The notes under the pieces were generated by a model. The model searched no databases and was not told where the DNA came from. It worked only from the letters and a program-made list of their open reading frames with translations. The translations under genes and the position numbers were made by a program. Below are positions 3,708-22,356 of a stretch of 24,649 nt of DNA, piece by piece. This DNA comes from a virus. Positions within the stretch are counted from its first letter, which is position 1, and every line of letters starts with the position of its first letter. The stretch is taken from the IMG/VR virus record IMGVR_UViG_3300050116_000045, positions 1 through 24,649 of that record. One strand, 5' to 3'.

Positions 3708-3874
3708 TCGGTTCCTATATACTTCGCGAGCAGCGTCCGCGAACGTTTAATCTCCTCGAGCAGTTCGTTCTCTACCCGCTTCGCTTCGTCGCGCGCGATC
3801 TCCAGCATCACGTCTCCCCACACATGCCTAATGGCGACACCTACAACAATTCCCAGTAACATCATGAGTATCAT
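3704..3874 (-). CDS. Small membrane protein with charged helix
   Basis: This 56-residue protein has an N-terminal membrane segment (MILMMLLGIVVGVAIRHVWG) followed by a charged, heptad-like helix ending at LLAKYIGTE. Both ends overlap neighbours as ATGA. It sits between the helicase and the sigma-like gene. A membrane-tethered coiled coil is the best description; no family is recognised. Confidence 0.6.
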   Translation of the reverse strand: MILMMLLGIVVGVAIRHVWGDVMLEIARDEAKRVENELLEEIKRSRTLLAKYIGTE

Positions 3875-5580
3875 GACAGGTCCTCGTTGACTCGTTTAAA
3901 CCTAAATTTCATTCCGTGGTTGCTACGTATCGCGTGCACCAGCTTGAATCCGGCGCTGATCTTACCTCGTTCGCCTCGCAACCAATACCCGACTTTGATC
4001 GAACTGTGCGGCTCGCTACATCCGCTCTGCAGCAGGAGAGCGGTCAATTCACCATGCGAGTCAGCAACGCCTCCAGCCAAGCCAGCGATGTCAATCGCAG
4101 TGAACTCACGCTCACCAAAATGTGAAACCAGCTTCTCAAACGTCGCTCCAAGGCTTCCAGTTTCATCGTCAGTCTCGCTTTGTGTTTCGCACGGATCGGG
4201 GAGTCCAAGCCACAGCAACGGGTCACGCACCATGCGTGACCACCGCTCGAAGCTTGGGAGCGGTACCGGGAGCCCATGCACCGTGGGCGCCGCGTGGTAG
4301 GCCTTGATGATCGTGAGCGCGTGCACCAGCAGCTGCGCGCGGTGCTCCATCACGTACCCGCCCGGGTTCTCGATCTTGAACCGGCGCTCTTTCATTCGCT
4401 CGGTGTTCGCGTCCAGTCGGACCACGAGACACCGTCGCGCGAGATCCGATACAGGGGTGACGTTATTCCCCGATGCGGACACCACAACTCGATTAGGCAC
4501 GGCATGTGTTTCTGAGACACCCAGCTTGCGGTCCTTCCAAATCTCAGATGTAAGGAACGCACACAGCTCAGGCGCCCGAGCCTTGTGCCCTGTAGGTACG
4601 TTATCAAACGCGATGCTGCGATCCCCGGCCAGTAGCGAGGCGAATAGTGTCTTACGAAGCTCGTCACCATTTTGCACCCATGGTCGAAGTGCCGGCACGG
4701 TGCCGTGTACGATTATCGAAGCCATCCCGCTAAGCAGACTCTTACCCGTGCCAGCATTCGGCGCTGAGTACCAAAACATGGGACAACGGTCTAACGCGAG
4801 CCTCGATGCTTCGGTGAGGATGTGCGCAAGGAACGCGGATTCACTCGCCGGAGTTTCCCACGGGAACTGATCGAAAATACTCCGCAGCCCGTCAAGAGCA
4901 AATCGAGCGTCATCTTTCGTAGGTTCCGCTGGAATTGCGGGGTACTCACAAGATGGGATATAAAGTCCTCGGCTAAACGCGTCGTATCCTGCTTGGTCAC
5001 AAATACTCCCGTCGGACCGGACGAACGGCGCCCGAGCGATAGCGGCAAGCGGTTTAAGTTTCGGCCAGTCTCCCTGATCCATCCACACGCCTACCAGCTC
5101 ATCAGGGCACGAGCAACGGACCCACGCGTTCTCGGCTCGAGCGCGCTTATCGAACCGGTAGAACTCGCACTCACTCATCGCGTGCGTGCGCGACCATCCC
5201 TTGGTTACGCGCGCTATCACCAACTGATCGGCGGCGCGCTTTACGCCGTCAACAATATCAGTGTCGTGCGCTCGTGAGAGTCGTACGAGCGATGTGGCCT
5301 GCGTGAACACTGTCGGCTCCATCAACAGGTTTAGCTGCTCGACATTCGTGTCGAGCGCGGCATCGCTCACTCGAATGAAACGTTGACCGGGCTGAATGAG
5401 TTGGGCAATGTCACCTTGCGCTCCTTCGCCACTGTCATTGTCCGGCGTTTCAGTAGCATTCGCGTCGCCCACTGGGCTGTTATCAACCGGTTGGAAAACG
5501 GCTGGGTCGCTCGTTTTTCCCCATCCCTTCTCGCGCGCTAGTTTTAGCACGTGACGCCAATCTGCTCTTGGCTGCATCAT
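3871..5580 (-). CDS. Replicative helicase-type ATPase
   Basis: This protein has 569 residues from the ATG at 5580, chosen because it overlaps the primase stop as ATGA (nine more codons are open upstream). The Walker A motif NAGTGKS is at about residues 275-281 and Walker B SIAFDNV at about 322-328. A polar strand with SASGNNVTPVSDLARR at about 365-380 resembles the sensor and arginine-finger region of SF3/D5-like helicases. The first 25 residues (ending VLKLAREKGW) match the last helix of a PriCT-2 domain, whose other part closes the primase gene. Together they look like one primase-helicase cut into two polypeptides. Expected role: unwinding at the replication fork. Confidence 0.75.
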   Translation of the reverse strand: MMQPRADWRHVLKLAREKGWGKTSDPAVFQPVDNSPVGDANATETPDNDSGEGAQGDIAQLIQPGQRFIRVSDAALDTNVEQLNLLMEPTVFTQATSLVRLSRAHDTDIVDGVKRAADQLVIARVTKGWSRTHAMSECEFYRFDKRARAENAWVRCSCPDELVGVWMDQGDWPKLKPLAAIARAPFVRSDGSICDQAGYDAFSRGLYIPSCEYPAIPAEPTKDDARFALDGLRSIFDQFPWETPASESAFLAHILTEASRLALDRCPMFWYSAPNAGTGKSLLSGMASIIVHGTVPALRPWVQNGDELRKTLFASLLAGDRSIAFDNVPTGHKARAPELCAFLTSEIWKDRKLGVSETHAVPNRVVVSASGNNVTPVSDLARRCLVVRLDANTERMKERRFKIENPGGYVMEHRAQLLVHALTIIKAYHAAPTVHGLPVPLPSFERWSRMVRDPLLWLGLPDPCETQSETDDETGSLGATFEKLVSHFGEREFTAIDIAGLAGGVADSHGELTALLLQSGCSEPHSSIKVGYWLRGERGKISAGFKLVHAIRSNHGMKFRFKRVNEDLS

Positions 5581-6506
5581 GACGTATGCGCCTTCCACCA
5601 GTTCCACGCGGATTCGTGATCGAAGTTAGGCGCCTTCCGACTAAAATCCATCCACAGCTGGGCCACCGGCTTACCACAGTCCTTGATTGAGATGAGCGAG
5701 ATACCTATTTCGGACCAAAGATCATTGTCCCCGGCGTGTGGCGCTAGAAACTTCAGCGCTTCTATGAGCTGTAGCCAATCGGAGTCGCTGATCGTGCTTA
5801 ACGGAGTATCGCTCGACGCCTGCCCACCCGATGTCACTACCGCAGTTGGCTTGGCGGTCGAAGGACTCGTCGCAAAACGAGACGTCAGCTCCGACCACAT
5901 CCGGTTCAGCTGTTCCAAAGTCACCGTCGGTAGATGGTTGGGAAGGTCTGGCGTCCAGCGGTAGCGCGAGCCACTGGAATGAGATCCAGCAGCAACAAAT
6001 TGTTGTCCATCTAGAAGGCACTCAATTCTCCCGTGTTGGGTTTCAATAATACGCTTGCGCCCGCCCTCGGGCAGTATAAATGGTATGAGCAGCTTGCCGC
6101 TGTTGTCGCGTCCGCGCGCACACACCGGCGCTGGAGGATGGCAGTTCAAAAATTCTCGTCCCACCAAAGCCGCTATGTCTTGCGCTACTGTTCGATCATC
6201 GATGTCAATGTCAATCGCTGCGACGCCACTTATAACGCCGGTTCTGACGCAGATATTAAGCCGCGGGTCCTTGCGCCATTGTGCCAGCTCGTTGGGCAGC
6301 AGCTCGCGCTTCTGCCAGTCCTTCAGCCCGTACGCGAACCCGAGCGGATCATACGCGCTCGGCACCTTGCCGAACGTTTTGATCTTCGAGCCTTGTCCCG
6401 GCTCAGCGTCGGCCTGCACGCACGGGAGCAGGTTCGCTCCGAGCCCCAGCTCTACGTCAAAACACCACCAATCTTGGGGTGTTGCTCCTCGTGGATGCTC
6501 GCTCAT
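5577..6506 (-). CDS. Bifunctional DNA primase/polymerase (prim-pol) with PriCT-2
   Basis: In this 309-residue protein, residues 12-190 show the archaeo-eukaryotic primase fold of the prim-pol family. The metal-binding acidic motif is AIDIDIDD at about 97-104, and GSHSSGSRYRW at about 174-184 is the conserved histidine motif. From about residue 245 a PriCT-2 domain follows (for example FLAPHAGDNDLWSEIG and LWMDFSRKAPNF). This domain stops early: its usual final helix is found at the start of the helicase gene. The start overlaps a small CxxC gene and the stop overlaps the helicase start, both as ATGA. Likely role: primer synthesis for phage replication. Confidence 0.8.
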   Translation of the reverse strand: MSEHPRGATPQDWWCFDVELGLGANLLPCVQADAEPGQGSKIKTFGKVPSAYDPLGFAYGLKDWQKRELLPNELAQWRKDPRLNICVRTGVISGVAAIDIDIDDRTVAQDIAALVGREFLNCHPPAPVCARGRDNSGKLLIPFILPEGGRKRIIETQHGRIECLLDGQQFVAAGSHSSGSRYRWTPDLPNHLPTVTLEQLNRMWSELTSRFATSPSTAKPTAVVTSGGQASSDTPLSTISDSDWLQLIEALKFLAPHAGDNDLWSEIGISLISIKDCGKPVAQLWMDFSRKAPNFDHESAWNWWKAHTS

Positions 6507-11858: not shown

Positions 11859-12743
11859 GTGGTGGAAGAAGCTAAAAGACTTAAGCGAAAAGCCTATCAA
11901 CGGGTCTACCAACGGGAATGGCGTAAGTCTCACCCTTTAAGCGTTGAAGAAAGAGCCGCTAACTGCGCGTACATGAAGGAGTGGCGACGCCAACGCCTCC
12001 TGTCTGCCGACCACGGAACGCAGCAAAGGATAATGGAGCGCCGGTCCAAGATGGCTTGGAAAAAGCGCAATCCAGAAGCGGCGCGCATAGAAAAGTGGCG
12101 CAAGAGAGCTGGCGGCGCCACAATGCCAACACGCCCGCGCCCTTCCAACTGTGAATGTTGCGGGCGTGAGAGCGTACTCATGAGGTTTGACCATGACCAC
12201 GATACGAAACAGTTTCGTGGTTGGTTGTGTCATCAGTGCAACGCAGGTATCGGTTTACTCGGGGACGGGTTTATTGGACTGCTACGCGCTATTGATTATT
12301 TGAACAGGGCGTACGAAGACATGTCACTTGCACTCGATCGTAACTATCTAGGCTCACAGAACAACAACGGATTCTTCTCGAGCGGTGTGGCGAACGCGTA
12401 CCCGTTTGTGTCCGGCAACAATAACCAGCCCGGCATCCCGGCCCAGACTCCTGCGCTCGTGCAGGAAGCTGACGGCGCGCGGCTGCAGGGCACGCCCGCC
12501 CTGCAGCAGTTTCAGGCCCCGAACGCGGTGACCCCGGCAACCCCGGGCGGCGGCGCGAACCCGGCCGCTGGCGCAAGTTCGCAGAATTTCATACAGCAGG
12601 GCGTGAGTCCTGTCGGTGTTGGTTCCGCGCCGACGGACAACACGCTCGAGGACGCAGGCATCAGCGGTGTTGGAACGCCGCTCATGGGCATGGCGAACGG
12701 GCTTCAGGAGCATTACGTCGCTGTCCACACGCTGGGTGTGTAA
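11859..12743 (+). CDS. HNH endonuclease fused in frame to a virion-type protein
   Basis: This 294-residue frame starts with GTG behind TGAGGTGAG. Residues 1-154 are an endonuclease VII-type nuclease: a basic tail (KAYQRVYQREWRKSH), a zinc pair NCECCGR, the core RFDHDHDTKQFRGWLC and CNAGIGLLGD, and an ending IDYLNRAYED. Without a stop the frame continues at Met155 (12321) into a 140-residue Gly/Pro/Asn-rich protein (NYLGSQNNNGFFSSG onward) like the other virion genes here. The second part has its own ATG but no strong ribosome-binding site. A fusion, or an internal start, are both possible. Confidence 0.7.
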   Translation: MVEEAKRLKRKAYQRVYQREWRKSHPLSVEERAANCAYMKEWRRQRLLSADHGTQQRIMERRSKMAWKKRNPEAARIEKWRKRAGGATMPTRPRPSNCECCGRESVLMRFDHDHDTKQFRGWLCHQCNAGIGLLGDGFIGLLRAIDYLNRAYEDMSLALDRNYLGSQNNNGFFSSGVANAYPFVSGNNNQPGIPAQTPALVQEADGARLQGTPALQQFQAPNAVTPATPGGGANPAAGASSQNFIQQGVSPVGVGSAPTDNTLEDAGISGVGTPLMGMANGLQEHYVAVHTLGV

Positions 12744-16857: not shown

Positions 16858-16930
16858 TGGCCTGTAGCTCAGTCGGTAGAGCGCGTTACTGTTAATGACG
16901 ATGTCGAAGGTTCGATCCCTTCCGGGCCAG
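16858..16930 (+). tRNA. tRNA-Asn (anticodon GTT)
   Basis: The full cloverleaf can be read. The acceptor TGGCCTG pairs with CGGGCCA (one G-U), the D arm is GCTC/GAGC, and the anticodon stem CGTTA/TGACG carries loop CTGTTAA (anticodon GTT). The variable loop has five bases, the T arm is GAAGG/CCTTC with loop TTCGATC, and the discriminator is G. There are 73 bases and no encoded CCA. It lies three bases after a stop codon and 26 before the first GroES-like gene, inside the late gene train. Confidence 0.9.
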
Positions 16931-17711: not shown

Positions 17712-18672
17712 GGAAGCGCCGAAGAACAAGTGGCCGAGATGTGATCCGAAGACGGTCGCGCCGATCAATAAAGATGGGCACCCGGATTTTAGGAACCACA
17801 TGCCGACCCGGTTCGTCTCCAAGGAGGAGGCGGAGCACCGCGGGTGGAAACTGTTCTACACGGGCGAGTTGTGCCGGTGGGGTCACCGGGCCCCACGGTA
17901 CGTGAACAACATTTCCGCGTGCGTGGACTGCATCAGGGTACGTAACAAACAGCTCCCGATAGGACTGTCCAGCGAACGCTTGACAGCGCCCACGAAAGCA
18001 GTCACCTCGCGCACCGCGACCGTGTCAACTGAGCCAGACTCGCTCGACAAGTTGTTCCTCACCGAGTACGTGAAGACCAAGAGCTTCGCCGAGGCCGCAA
18101 AAGCGTGCGGCCGGACCGAACCAGAGTTTCTTGGCCGTCTAAGTTGGAACAAAATTTTTCGTGACGCAGTGAATCAGCTCGAGTCCGACAACGGACTCGC
18201 TCGCACTCCGTCTATGCTTGAAGATTTCGAGTGGACAGATGACAAACGCGCGGTGCTGCTGCGCACGTACATTGATAAAGGCGACAAATTGCAGGCCATG
18301 CGCGCGATCGGCGTCTCCAACTACCATTTCGAGAAGGAAATGGAGGTTAACGCCGAGTTTCGTGACGAAGTTGGTCAGGCCGAGGAGCTAGCGCACCGCC
18401 AACTCGACGGAGAAGCGGTCAACCGGGCACTGGCCGGCGATTCTCGGCTCCTGCAGCGTGTGCTGTCGGCGAAAATGCCTGATCAGTACGGCGACAAGAT
18501 CAAAATGGACCTGAACGTCGCCAACAAGGCGACGGATGACCAACTTTCAGTGCGAATTGCGCAAGGTTTCGCGAAACTCGAGCGTTTGGGGTTCAAAATT
18601 CCCGTTCCAGAGCTGCCCGTCGACGCGGAATTCACCCCGGTCGAGTCGGGCGACAATTCGGACCTCGCGTGA
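17704..18672 (+). CDS. terS: Terminase small subunit with N-terminal zinc module
   Basis: This 322-residue protein is longer than the usual 150-200. Residues 200-310 carry the terminase small-subunit pattern (ERLGF tail, DGEAVNRALAGDSRLLQRVL and KMPDQYGDK), preceded by an HTH-like AMRAIGVSNYHFEKEME. Residues 38-80 form a separate module, GELCRWGHRAPRYVNNISAC with VDC, a probable zinc site (C57, H61, C73, C76). A similar module opens the HNH nuclease at 21925. The start GTG overlaps the co-chaperonin gene; the stop overlaps terL (GTGA). Role: DNA recognition for packaging. Confidence 0.7.
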   Translation: MTEEAPKNKWPRCDPKTVAPINKDGHPDFRNHMPTRFVSKEEAEHRGWKLFYTGELCRWGHRAPRYVNNISACVDCIRVRNKQLPIGLSSERLTAPTKAVTSRTATVSTEPDSLDKLFLTEYVKTKSFAEAAKACGRTEPEFLGRLSWNKIFRDAVNQLESDNGLARTPSMLEDFEWTDDKRAVLLRTYIDKGDKLQAMRAIGVSNYHFEKEMEVNAEFRDEVGQAEELAHRQLDGEAVNRALAGDSRLLQRVLSAKMPDQYGDKIKMDLNVANKATDDQLSVRIAQGFAKLERLGFKIPVPELPVDAEFTPVESGDNSDLA

Positions 18673-20513
18673 CCAGCGAAATACGCTCCCCGACCCAGAA
18701 CCTGCAGTTCATGGGCCGGAAAGACAAGCTGAAGTTGCTTGAGGCGATCGAATCGAAGCTGCGCAACATCGAGCGCAACCAGATTTCCATGTGGTTCAAC
18801 ACCCCGGAGGTGAGGGCCGCGTACTCGAAGCAGATGAAATTCTTCAGGCTCGGCAAAGAGTACACCGAGCGGGGACTGTTCGGGGGCAACCGCACGGGTA
18901 AGGCACAGCCGGTTAATGAGCCGGTACTAACACCAACGGGTTGGCGCGAGATAGGCAGCGTCCGTGTTGGTGATCAGGTTATCGGCTCTGCGGGGGCGCC
19001 GGTAACAGTAACGGGCGTCTTTCCTCAAGGGCGAAAAGCCGTCTATAAAGTGACCGCCCGAGATGGATCCGTAACTCGCTGTTGCCCGGAGCACCTATGG
19101 TCGGTACGCTCGACGCACAAAGGCAAGCACTCTGAATACAGAGTACTTACCGCGAAAGAGATTAAAGAATCTATAGAGCGCGGGCGACGATGGATACTTC
19201 CGAGGCGCCCCTTAGTAGAATTTACGCAGCGCTATCAACTACCGGTTGATCCCTACCTATTAGGCGTGCTTATAGGCGACGGCAGCTGCGCAGCAACAGG
19301 CACCGTTTTTCTTTCTTCTGCTGACGATCATATAGTTCAGCGGTGCAAAGAACTCGCCTCGGATTATGGATGTGAATTAGTTTTTCGGTCAAAGTATGAC
19401 TATCAGTTTGTAACGGAGCGCCGCGCCCCCGGGGGCGGGTGGCACAATATTTTAGGGTCTTTGGTTGCGGGCCTTGGACTAGATTGCAAGAGCGCGGATA
19501 AGCGGATACCAAAAGAGTATCTGATGAGTGAGAGCCGCGCTAGATGGGAACTGCTACGCGGTCTTATGGATACAGACGGTGCAGTTAACAGGCCTAGCAA
19601 AACGGGATGGGGGGGATCCCGTAGCTATAGCTCTGTTAGTAGAGGCCTGTGTGAAGATGTGACGGCGCTAGCGCGAAGTTTAGGATTAAACGCGAGCATA
19701 AACCAGAAGCGCGGAAAATATAAAGGCGCGCTGCACTTGTCTTGGCGGGTAGAGATATACAACTCCCCAGAGTCGTTATTTAGTCTTCCGCGCAAGAAAG
19801 AGCGTGAACGCTGGCGAGACATGGCGACACGCGGTATAGCCATAGAGTCGATAATAGAAGATGGGTTCGCCGACTGCGTATGCATTAAAGTAGACGCGCC
19901 TGATTCATTATACATGGCACGAGACTTTATTTTAACGCACAACACGCACTGCGGCGCGTACGAGGACACTCTGCACCTGACCGGACAGTACCCGGCGTGG
20001 TGGGAGGGTCGCAGGTTCGCGCACCCGATCGATATGTGGGCCGCGACCGATACCGCGAAGAACACGCGCGACATTTTGCAGGCGAAGTTCTGCGGCGCGC
20101 CCGGGAACGCTATGGCGATGGGCACCGGAATGATTCCCGGCGACCTGATCCTCCGCACGACCGTCAAGCACGGGCTCGCGGACGCGTACGAGACGATCTT
20201 CGTTCGGCACGTGCCGACCGGCGGCGTCTCTACGCTACAGCTGAAATCGTATGACCAAGGTCGTGTCGCTTTCCAAGGCACACGTCAGCACCTGATCCAT
20301 CTAGACGAGGAACCGGCGCTGGACGTTTATGTGGAGTGCCTGCTCCGTCTCATGAGCACGAGTCCGGGCGAAGAGACGGGGCTATTGATTTTGACCGAGA
20401 CTCCGTTGCTCGGAATCAGTGACCTCATGATAGAGTTTATGCCAGAGCTTAAACCCGAGCCCGACTCGGTGCCGACCGAGACATGGGCCCCGGAGGACAC
20501 CGTTGAAGGCTAG
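18669..20513 (+). CDS. terL: Terminase large subunit, ATPase half, with intein in Walker A
   Basis: The 614-residue precursor starts with GTG. Extein residues 1-78 end in the P-loop GGNRTGK. The intein (347 residues) follows, then T-H-C continues the Walker A. Walker B is LIHLDEEP and the coupling motif is LTETPLLG. After splicing the ATPase has 267 residues. It stops at TAG (20511-20513) exactly where a normal large terminase would continue into the nuclease domain, which is encoded by the next, +1-shifted gene. Drives DNA translocation into the capsid at the portal; splicing is required because the intein interrupts the ATP site. Confidence 0.85.
   Translation: MTSEIRSPTQNLQFMGRKDKLKLLEAIESKLRNIERNQISMWFNTPEVRAAYSKQMKFFRLGKEYTERGLFGGNRTGKAQPVNEPVLTPTGWREIGSVRVGDQVIGSAGAPVTVTGVFPQGRKAVYKVTARDGSVTRCCPEHLWSVRSTHKGKHSEYRVLTAKEIKESIERGRRWILPRRPLVEFTQRYQLPVDPYLLGVLIGDGSCAATGTVFLSSADDHIVQRCKELASDYGCELVFRSKYDYQFVTERRAPGGGWHNILGSLVAGLGLDCKSADKRIPKEYLMSESRARWELLRGLMDTDGAVNRPSKTGWGGSRSYSSVSRGLCEDVTALARSLGLNASINQKRGKYKGALHLSWRVEIYNSPESLFSLPRKKERERWRDMATRGIAIESIIEDGFADCVCIKVDAPDSLYMARDFILTHNTHCGAYEDTLHLTGQYPAWWEGRRFAHPIDMWAATDTAKNTRDILQAKFCGAPGNAMAMGTGMIPGDLILRTTVKHGLADAYETIFVRHVPTGGVSTLQLKSYDQGRVAFQGTRQHLIHLDEEPALDVYVECLLRLMSTSPGEETGLLILTETPLLGISDLMIEFMPELKPEPDSVPTETWAPEDTVEG
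18903..19943 (+). mobile_element. Class 3-type intein with LAGLIDADG endonuclease
   Basis: The 347-residue intein sits between K and T of the terminase P-loop. It begins with Ala (AQPVNEPVLTPTGW) instead of Cys/Ser, and ends in ILTHN followed by Thr. The class 3 triad is visible: Trp two residues after the block B His (EHLW), Cys in block F (DCVCIKV), and Thr before the terminal His-Asn. Two LAGLIDADG motifs, LLGVLIGDGS and LLRGLMDTDGAV, keep their acidic residues, so the homing endonuclease may be active. The segment is visibly richer in A+T than the extein. Confidence 0.85.
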
Positions 20514-21246
20514 CGTGTTTCTAGACATGAGTGATGTCCCGCACATCACCGAGGCGGAGCAAGCCAAGATTTTGGCGAGCACTCCCCCGTGGCAGCGTCA
20601 GGCGCGTAAGTCAGGTATCCCGGGTCACGGTGTCGGCGCGATCTACCCGATCCCCGAGGCCGCGATGCTTGTCGAGCCGTACGAGATACCGAAGCACTGG
20701 CCCCGGTCGTACGGAATGGATCCGGGTTGGAACTGCACCGCGGTGATCTGGTTCGCGTGGGACATCGACAACGGCGGCGCGGTGGCGTACGACGAGTATT
20801 ACAGGGGTCAAGCAGACCCGGCCGTGCATGTCGCGGCCATCAACGCGCGCGGGCGCTGGATCCCGGGCGCGATCGACCCAGCCGCTCAGGCCGCGCGCGG
20901 CCACGCGGGCGAGCTGCTGCTGGACGTGTACCGCGAGCTTGGGCTGACCATCGAGAAGGCGGACAATGCCGTGGTCCCCGGCCTCCTGAGGTGCTGGGAC
21001 ATGCTCTCGACGCAGCAACTGCGCGTCTTCAGCACGCTGCGCAACTGGCGGAACGAGATCCGCCTGTACAAGCGCAACGAGAAGGGCGAGATCATCAAGA
21101 AAAACGATCACTTGATGGATGCCATGCGCTACAACGTCATGAGTGGCCGATCGATCGCCAAAGTGGCTCCCGATGCTGGCGACGGCAAGCAGTGGTTCGC
21201 GTGGAGCCCCGCGATGGCGAGCCCGGGTGGCGTGTGGAGCGGCTAA
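20503..21246 (+). CDS. Terminase large subunit, nuclease half
   Basis: The 247-residue product starts with TTG at 20503 behind GGAGG with a six-base spacer, overlapping the ATPase gene by 11 bases in the +1 frame. It begins KASVFLDMSDVPH, the strand that normally continues a large terminase after the ATPase. It contains the RNase H-type nuclease acids: YGMDPGWN, GAIDPAA and DHLMDAMRY. All three catalytic Asp positions are kept. ATPase plus nuclease (267 + 247) equal a normal terminase in length. Translation as a separate, coupled protein or by a +1 frameshift are both possible. Cuts concatemeric DNA during packaging. Confidence 0.85.
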   Translation: MKASVFLDMSDVPHITEAEQAKILASTPPWQRQARKSGIPGHGVGAIYPIPEAAMLVEPYEIPKHWPRSYGMDPGWNCTAVIWFAWDIDNGGAVAYDEYYRGQADPAVHVAAINARGRWIPGAIDPAAQAARGHAGELLLDVYRELGLTIEKADNAVVPGLLRCWDMLSTQQLRVFSTLRNWRNEIRLYKRNEKGEIIKKNDHLMDAMRYNVMSGRSIAKVAPDAGDGKQWFAWSPAMASPGGVWSG

Positions 21247-21449: not shown

Positions 21450-21928
21450 GCATCGTACTGAAACTGCGCCATGTGGACGGAATTCGCTTACGTCAGCAGT
21501 CCGCGAACTCTATCCGTACGGTAAAGGATAACGGCGATGTCGTTAACGGCGGAAAGGAATGGAAGTTCGACGCGCTGGAGTGCCAGCAGGATGAGGACTC
21601 ACGCCGCGTCGGAAACGACGGCAAGAAAGAGAAGCTCGGGACGTATACCGTCACGATCGCCGCGGGATTGCGTAATCTCGTGATCGAGAAGTCTGGCAAA
21701 GTTGAGTCAATCGAACTCAGGAACCCGGCGCTGCGCAACCAGATGCGCACCCAGTGCCAGACGCTCGTGCCGGTCGAGAAAGACGGCAAGCCGACGACGA
21801 CCAAACAAGGCAAACCGATCATGGAATGGAAGAACAGCGGCCCCGCGCAGTACGTTCCCCCGAACTCTCCGCACGGCGTGTTCGTGGGCGATGGGCAGCG
21901 CGCGATCGCGGACGAGTGCCCCACATGA
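21446..21928 (+). CDS. 160-residue protein of packaging region, unknown
   Basis: The gene starts at an ATGA overlap (GAGGTGAGG upstream) and ends in one with the HNH gene. The protein is hydrophilic with a beta-rich middle (KLGTYTVTIAAGLRNLVIEK) and a Lys-rich loop. It ends in an Asp/Pro tail, and no signal or membrane segment is visible. Its place between terminase and portal suggests a role in head morphogenesis, but I recognise no domain. Confidence 0.6.
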   Translation: MSIVLKLRHVDGIRLRQQSANSIRTVKDNGDVVNGGKEWKFDALECQQDEDSRRVGNDGKKEKLGTYTVTIAAGLRNLVIEKSGKVESIELRNPALRNQMRTQCQTLVPVEKDGKPTTTKQGKPIMEWKNSGPAQYVPPNSPHGVFVGDGQRAIADECPT

Positions 21929-22356
21929 GATTTGCGCGCTCGGCGGCCCTAGCCGCCGGAGAACCAACGTATGAGTCAGGTCGCCCGTGTAAGCACGGGC
22001 ACGCGGCCCCGCGGTTTTCTAGTAATGGCTGGTGCGTCGAGTGCGCCCGTGGGCAGAGTAATACGTGGCACAAGCAACACCCGGGCGAGTATCGCCGCGC
22101 GCATCCCGCGCAGTACAAGGCGTATAAAGAAAAACGCCGTGCCGCCGAGAAAGCCCCGGTGTGGGCGTCACAGACGTGCATCGCCGCAGTGTACGGCATC
22201 ATGCGCCGCCTGCGGCAGGTTGGAGTGGATGTACATGTGGATCATGTTGTGCCTCTGAATGGAAAGACAATCTCCGGGTTACACGTGCGCGAGAATCTTC
22301 AAATAATCCCGGCGCGCGATAATGTTCGGAAGCAGCGGATCTTCGTACCCGCATGA
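21925..22356 (+). CDS. HNH endonuclease with N-terminal zinc module
   Basis: This 143-residue protein has a zinc module GRPCKHGHAAPRFSSNGWC with VEC (C22, H26, C37, C40) at its N-terminus. A basic, Tyr/His-rich linker follows, then a classical HNH core HVDHVVPLNGKTISGLH followed by ENLQIIPARDN. It is inserted at a coupled junction, ATGA on both sides, between a packaging gene and the portal. Likely a homing-type nuclease; nucleases of this family near terminase genes have also been implicated in packaging-linked cutting. Confidence 0.8.
   Translation: MRFARSAALAAGEPTYESGRPCKHGHAAPRFSSNGWCVECARGQSNTWHKQHPGEYRRAHPAQYKAYKEKRRAAEKAPVWASQTCIAAVYGIMRRLRQVGVDVHVDHVVPLNGKTISGLHVRENLQIIPARDNVRKQRIFVPA

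Follow-up and report, generated by a model that had tools for sequence, protein, structure and literature searches.

Two genes for one phage terminase large subunit, with a break inside the ATPase domain

In the 24,649-nucleotide (nt) IMG/VR virus record IMGVR_UViG_3300050116_000045 (hereafter, the window, a single 24.6-kb record that may be a fragment), a reading frame with terminase ATPase motifs ends at a stop codon, and the nuclease follows in a separate gene. Is this a terminase gene damaged by an indel, one protein made from two frames, or a terminase large subunit (TerL) that consists of two polypeptides?

Two adjacent genes in the window

Gene 1 matches the Pfam families Terminase_6N and LAGLIDADG/Hom_end; gene 2, in the +1 frame relative to gene 1 and overlapping it by 11 nt, matches Terminase_6C (Table 1). 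The hallmarks of a terminase large subunit are distributed over the pair rather than carried by one polypeptide: Walker A, Walker B and motif III all lie in gene 1, assuming that its intein is excised, and gene 2 has the RNase H-like nuclease, with three acidic residues (D73, D125 and D206) that are invariant across our alignment. Without the intein the combined length is 614 − 347 + 247 = 514 aa, compared with approximately 472–525 aa in single-ORF relatives. A P22-type portal gene begins at 22353, near gene 2, with two small ORFs in between. Judged by homology to TerL, the pair should work like TerL in two-chain form. An earlier note on this DNA had described a TAG stop followed by a nuclease in the +1 frame with its own TTG start and a GGAGG six bases upstream, the full set of three acidic residues, a normal total length, and two separate genes of which one bears an intein; our coordinates, alignment and intein-free relatives confirm each of these points.

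Table 1 Features of the two-gene terminase locus (window coordinates)
Feature	Position	Strand	Details
Gene 1, terminase ATPase-core chain with intein	18669..20513	+	614 aa; GTG start, TAG stop
Walker A, GGNRTGK	18882..18902	+	T encoded 3′ of the intein, at 19944; from sequence
Intein with LAGLIDADG endonuclease	18903..19943	+	347 aa; first residue Ala, end THN, then Thr
Walker B, LIHLDEE	20292..20312	+	from sequence and alignment
Motif III (C motif), LTETP	20391..20405	+	from sequence and alignment
Gene 1 C-terminal end, EFMPELKPEPDSVPTETW...	20433..20510	+	from alignment
GGAGG, putative gene 2 ribosome-binding site	20492..20496	+	six bases before TTG 20503
Gene overlap (gene 2 TTG to gene 1 TAG)	20503..20513	+	11 nt
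Gene 2: strand after the break, lid, linker, RNase H-like nuclease	20503..21246	+	247 aa; TTG start
Gene 2 residues 1–48: strand, lid-subdomain helices, linker	20503..20646	+	ATPase side of the domain boundary
Nuclease domain	20647..21243	+	D73 (20719–20721), D125 (20875–20877), D206 (21118–21120)

The intein lies between GNRTGK and the T of Walker A, where intein-free relatives have an uninterrupted GNRTGKTHCG. This position is the classic site of P-loop inteins, and the mycobacteriophage TerL inteins at the ‘TerL1-a’ site likewise interrupt Walker A between its invariant Lys and Thr; the window differs from them in that the host protein of its intein is additionally split genetically (PMC5050341). 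Read by eye, the residues A1, EHLW, CIKVD and THN fit the pattern of a class 3 (WCT) intein (criteria from PMC5050341), and these motifs suggest that the gene 1 intein splices. Inserts of approximately 830–1000 bp at or near Walker A, likely also inteins, occur in five other loci of our sample (L032, L036, L110, L182 and L316), in split and fused terminases alike.

The junction in relatives

Using the nuclease as a query on IMG/VR, we collected 80 relatives, 79 of which were usable. All 79 are split at the same point, with the ATPase frame stopping before, or just past, the start of the nuclease frame. The junctions themselves vary, with TAA, TAG and TGA stops, relative frames of 0, 1 and 2, and spacings from −35 to approximately +510 nt. 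A near-identical second IMG/VR contig (L002) differs from the window at 20 of 1294 bases, with one amino acid changed (pS 0.142 and pN 0.002 for the ATPase), and has the same TAG/TTG overlap. Where unsaturated, dN/dS values for the two genes are 0.11–0.14 and 0.20–0.23, and both genes are under purifying selection. The GenBank record MW202785 has two CDS annotated ‘large terminase protein’.

An error in sequencing or assembly, or an indel that recently inactivated the gene, could in principle produce such a pair, and the sample contains an example: the locus L194, which we initially counted as split, is in fact a fused-type terminase whose ATPase is interrupted midway by a frameshift. For the window, however, comparison with close relatives, the check that the earlier note had proposed, reveals no private indel: every usable relative has two genes, isolate genomes are split too, and L002 combines an identical junction with substitutions that are mostly synonymous. 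Together with the selection data, these observations rule out an error or indel, the chance of which we consider negligible.

Most junctions are overlaps or gaps of a few bases. Some split pairs in prophages of isolate genomes are joined by compact overlaps (ATGA in Sphingomonas melonis, Kushneria aurantia and Phenylobacterium deserti, GTGA in Acetobacter musti), and others lie 1–5 kb apart. In Bradyrhizobium sp. dw_78, a stretch of 5.3 kb with other ORFs separates the halves on a single 162-kb contig, and in a Rhizobiaceae MAG the distance is approximately 3.9 kb. Of 60 gene 2 starts, only 21 have a ribosome-binding-like site upstream (background 13%), and we therefore assume that overlapping pairs are translated by coupling and not by independent initiation.

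These junctions bear on whether the two frames are joined into one product. Programmed +1 frameshifting at GGC-TAG-C would yield a single TerL polypeptide, and the nuclease frame is indeed open from 20434 up to the junction, with a +1 relation recurring among many relatives that have short overlaps. Yet frame, stop codon and spacing all vary, some nucleases follow in frame after a TAA, whole genes or, as in Bradyrhizobium, 5.3 kb separate some halves, no slippery site is conserved among the relatives, and gene 2 has a start codon of its own, preceded in the window by a GGAGG. We consider frameshifting highly improbable as the source of the protein, and a +1 shift in the window itself is disfavoured given this lack of conservation. 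Joining by an intron at the RNA level, or by a split intein at the protein level, has precedents in the cis intein of gene 1 and in known introns of TerL genes (PMC11878797). The TerL genes of Bastillevirinae have group I introns with endonuclease genes inside (PMC11878797) and resemble some of the split loci in that endonuclease genes occupy an interruption of the coding sequence; their RNA is spliced to one ORF, whereas split TerL comprises two ORFs in which an intron was not found. Indeed, neither the window nor 26 loci with long gaps yielded an intron family at the Rfam gathering thresholds, most junctions are too short for either element, and both halves come with separate start and stop codons, leaving this route with hardly any probability. 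Neither frameshifting nor an intron could plausibly join pairs that have genes or kilobases between the halves, or the compact ATGA and GTGA overlaps of the prophages; the varying junctions and the distant halves rule out both as a general explanation.

Among the 79 close relatives, 13 have an ORF of approximately 400–520 bp between the terminase genes. In L033 and L077 this ORF matches endonuclease VII; in L009 it has no Pfam match and looks HNH-like by eye, as do others. Distant split loci have HNH, HNH_3+AP2, T5orf172 (GIY-YIG), Tad2-like and MotA/ExbB-like genes at the break, and the ORFs tested in close and distant relatives are mostly nucleases. In L266, the opening residues of an HNH ORF almost repeat the N-terminus of gene 2 (MPAITESRYLVQA), suggesting insertion at the gene 2 start. 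Such homing-endonuclease-type genes may have caused the split in some lineages, or may have come later into a gap that was already tolerated; the window itself has none at the break.

Several neighbouring genes were noted in passing. In L316, the first residues of an HNH-type ORF (5194–5790) nearly duplicate the N-terminus of the nuclease gene next to it. A Tad2-like (Thoeris anti-defence) gene lies between the terminase genes of an Azospirillum prophage (L252, 3816–4406), and L121 has an ORF of similar text. Just 3′ of the nuclease gene of the window, an ORF at 21754–22356 (+) without a Pfam match resembles the HNH ORFs that separate the terminase genes of L009 and other loci (VDHVVPLNGKTISGLHVRENLQ). 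Elsewhere, the window has an ORF with an endonuclease VII domain (11859–12743, +), a tRNA gene (16858–16930, +) and two ORFs, 3871–5607 (−) and 5577–6506 (−), that overlap by 31 nt and correspond to separate regions of phrog_29234 (887 aa), one being a Prim-Pol protein and the other a downstream part; they are possibly a second split gene, here one of replication.

The break within the ATPase fold

The alignment places the break in a loop. Fused relatives read FLP-loop-VVxATWDDVPHL, and the end of gene 1 after its FMP is kept within the clade of the window and is without counterpart in fused TerL. In an AlphaFold model of a fused relative (L107, pLDDT 91), the break falls at residues ~228–231, between H220–225 and E233–237; from its place in the fold, the strand 233–237 probably belongs to the ATPase core sheet. 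The solved ATPase domains of P74-26 and T4 align to this model up to residues 271–278, and the P22 nuclease domain begins at residue 271, so gene 2 encodes approximately 40–45 residues that belong to the ATPase domain, the lid helices among them. In D6E TerL the lid subdomain is followed by a linker at 230–241 (PMC5727402), and a single alignment to D6E, which may be a few positions off, assigns gene 2 residues 1–36 to the ATPase domain and 37–48 to the linker. The ATPase chain modelled alone has a pLDDT of 84.

The break is therefore inside the ATPase domain, and gene 2 comprises the strand after motif III, the lid, the linker and the nuclease; the mapping onto solved structures rules out a split exactly between two domains. 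That the TAG comes right after the last ATPase motif, as the earlier note had it, is correct for the sequence motif and incorrect for the end of the domain. Its description of the two engines as separate polypeptides is not quite right either, because part of the ATPase domain, lid included, is encoded by gene 2, and the two chains look interdependent. The same mapping weighs on the idea of two independent enzymes, an ATPase that translocates and a nuclease that cuts without a stable complex. The full set of catalytic motifs is present and the genes can be distant, with others between them, as such a division would allow; however, the ATPase chain lacks the lid and the strand after motif III, both of which are on the nuclease chain, an odd arrangement for autonomous enzymes that makes this idea improbable.

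Comparison of the sequences thus establishes two conserved genes, divided at the same point within the ATPase domain and separable in relatives, whose products very probably must reassemble to work. We think it probable, with good confidence, that TerL is here made from two adjacent cistrons whose chains associate, and the product is likely an obligate two-chain terminase large subunit. We infer the association, the ring stoichiometry, the coupling in trans, the intein splicing and the origin of the fissions, as follows. Gene 1 would provide the ASCE ATPase core after intein splicing, and gene 2 the strand past the break, the lid subdomain, the linker and the nuclease. The cistrons are probably translationally coupled, and the chains would associate by completing the ATPase domain, such that heterodimers stand in for single TerL subunits in the portal-bound ring and the lid, through which ATP hydrolysis is coupled to DNA movement, is supplied in trans. 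The junction can receive homing-endonuclease-type genes and others, and these may also account for some of the fissions. It is possible, if rather unlikely, that what evolved recurrently is a two-subunit packaging motor in a stronger sense, with a separate ATPase-core ring and a lid–nuclease subunit whose stoichiometry may differ or which may be exchanged, and with lid coupling and cutting regulated by association of the second protein.

Precedents and history of the split

Single-chain TerL of the Terminase_6 type (EBPR podovirus 1 gp39, Chlorobiaceae phage CV-1-33, P22 and D6E) is homologous to both halves and shares the ATPase motifs, lid, linker and nuclease acids with the window, which differs in having two polypeptides, the break being in the loop that leads into the strand after motif III. 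Other phage genes are known in pieces: Aeh1 nrdA is split by mobE, the T4 topoisomerase by mobA, and gene 43 of phages 25 and 44RR into 43A and 43B, and the products of the split Aeh1 nrdA (ribonucleotide reductase) and phage 25 gene 43 (DNA polymerase) function as complexes (PMC2988022). Like these enzymes (PMC2988022), the terminase of the window is a single gene in related phages, and split TerL is an essential phage enzyme encoded in two cistrons without splicing. In some relatives, but not in the window, genes of the homing-endonuclease type lie at the break. Unlike the enzymes known in pieces, split TerL is a packaging motor, its split recurs across many phages at one site, and most of its junctions are without an endonuclease. 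By analogy with the split T4-like ribonucleotide reductase and DNA polymerase, our best reading is that the two chains reassemble into one TerL subunit.

The two terminase proteins of the window match two separate PHROG families, 31467 (261 aa, the ATPase part) and 5653 (199 aa, the nuclease part), and the split halves are therefore probably already in PHROGs; phrog_31467 is labelled as of unknown function and its pairing with 5653 is unmarked there. A literature search, outside which most subscription journals fell, found no published account of such a TerL split. As far as we found, the halves were thus already recorded, in MW202785 and PHROGs, yet apparently uninterpreted.

We sampled 309 loci and classed 150 as split, including the frameshifted L194, and 140 as fused (290 classifiable); the sample was seeded with both kinds and is biased, and gives no estimate of frequency. 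The suggestion that few phages have separate genes does not hold in this Terminase_6-type family, in which the split arrangement is common rather than rare among the loci sampled. The trees imply 17 (nuclease), 15 (concatenated) and 9 (careful 48-row tree) changes between split and fused states. Holding all split rows as one clade, that is, a single origin of the split, was rejected by the AU test (p = 0.0004) on 48 rows chosen after an earlier tree had been viewed, a choice that leans the p-value towards rejection. The distant outgroup phages examined are fused, making fission from a fused ancestor likely; L106 and L107, which are fused and nested among split rows, may represent re-fusion, and parsimony cannot separate fission from fusion case by case. 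Within the lineage of the window the split is stable and shared by the whole clade, and in the TerL family it arose or was undone several times.

TerL, which drives DNA into the virus shell, is the hallmark gene of tailed phages, and taxonomy, annotation and models of the motor treat it as a single protein. Gene callers and marker-gene pipelines will count half-terminases, or miss them, in many phages. A break that recurs at one site, between the ATPase core and the lid, would provide natural two-piece motors in which the coupling role of the lid can be tested by mixing subunits.
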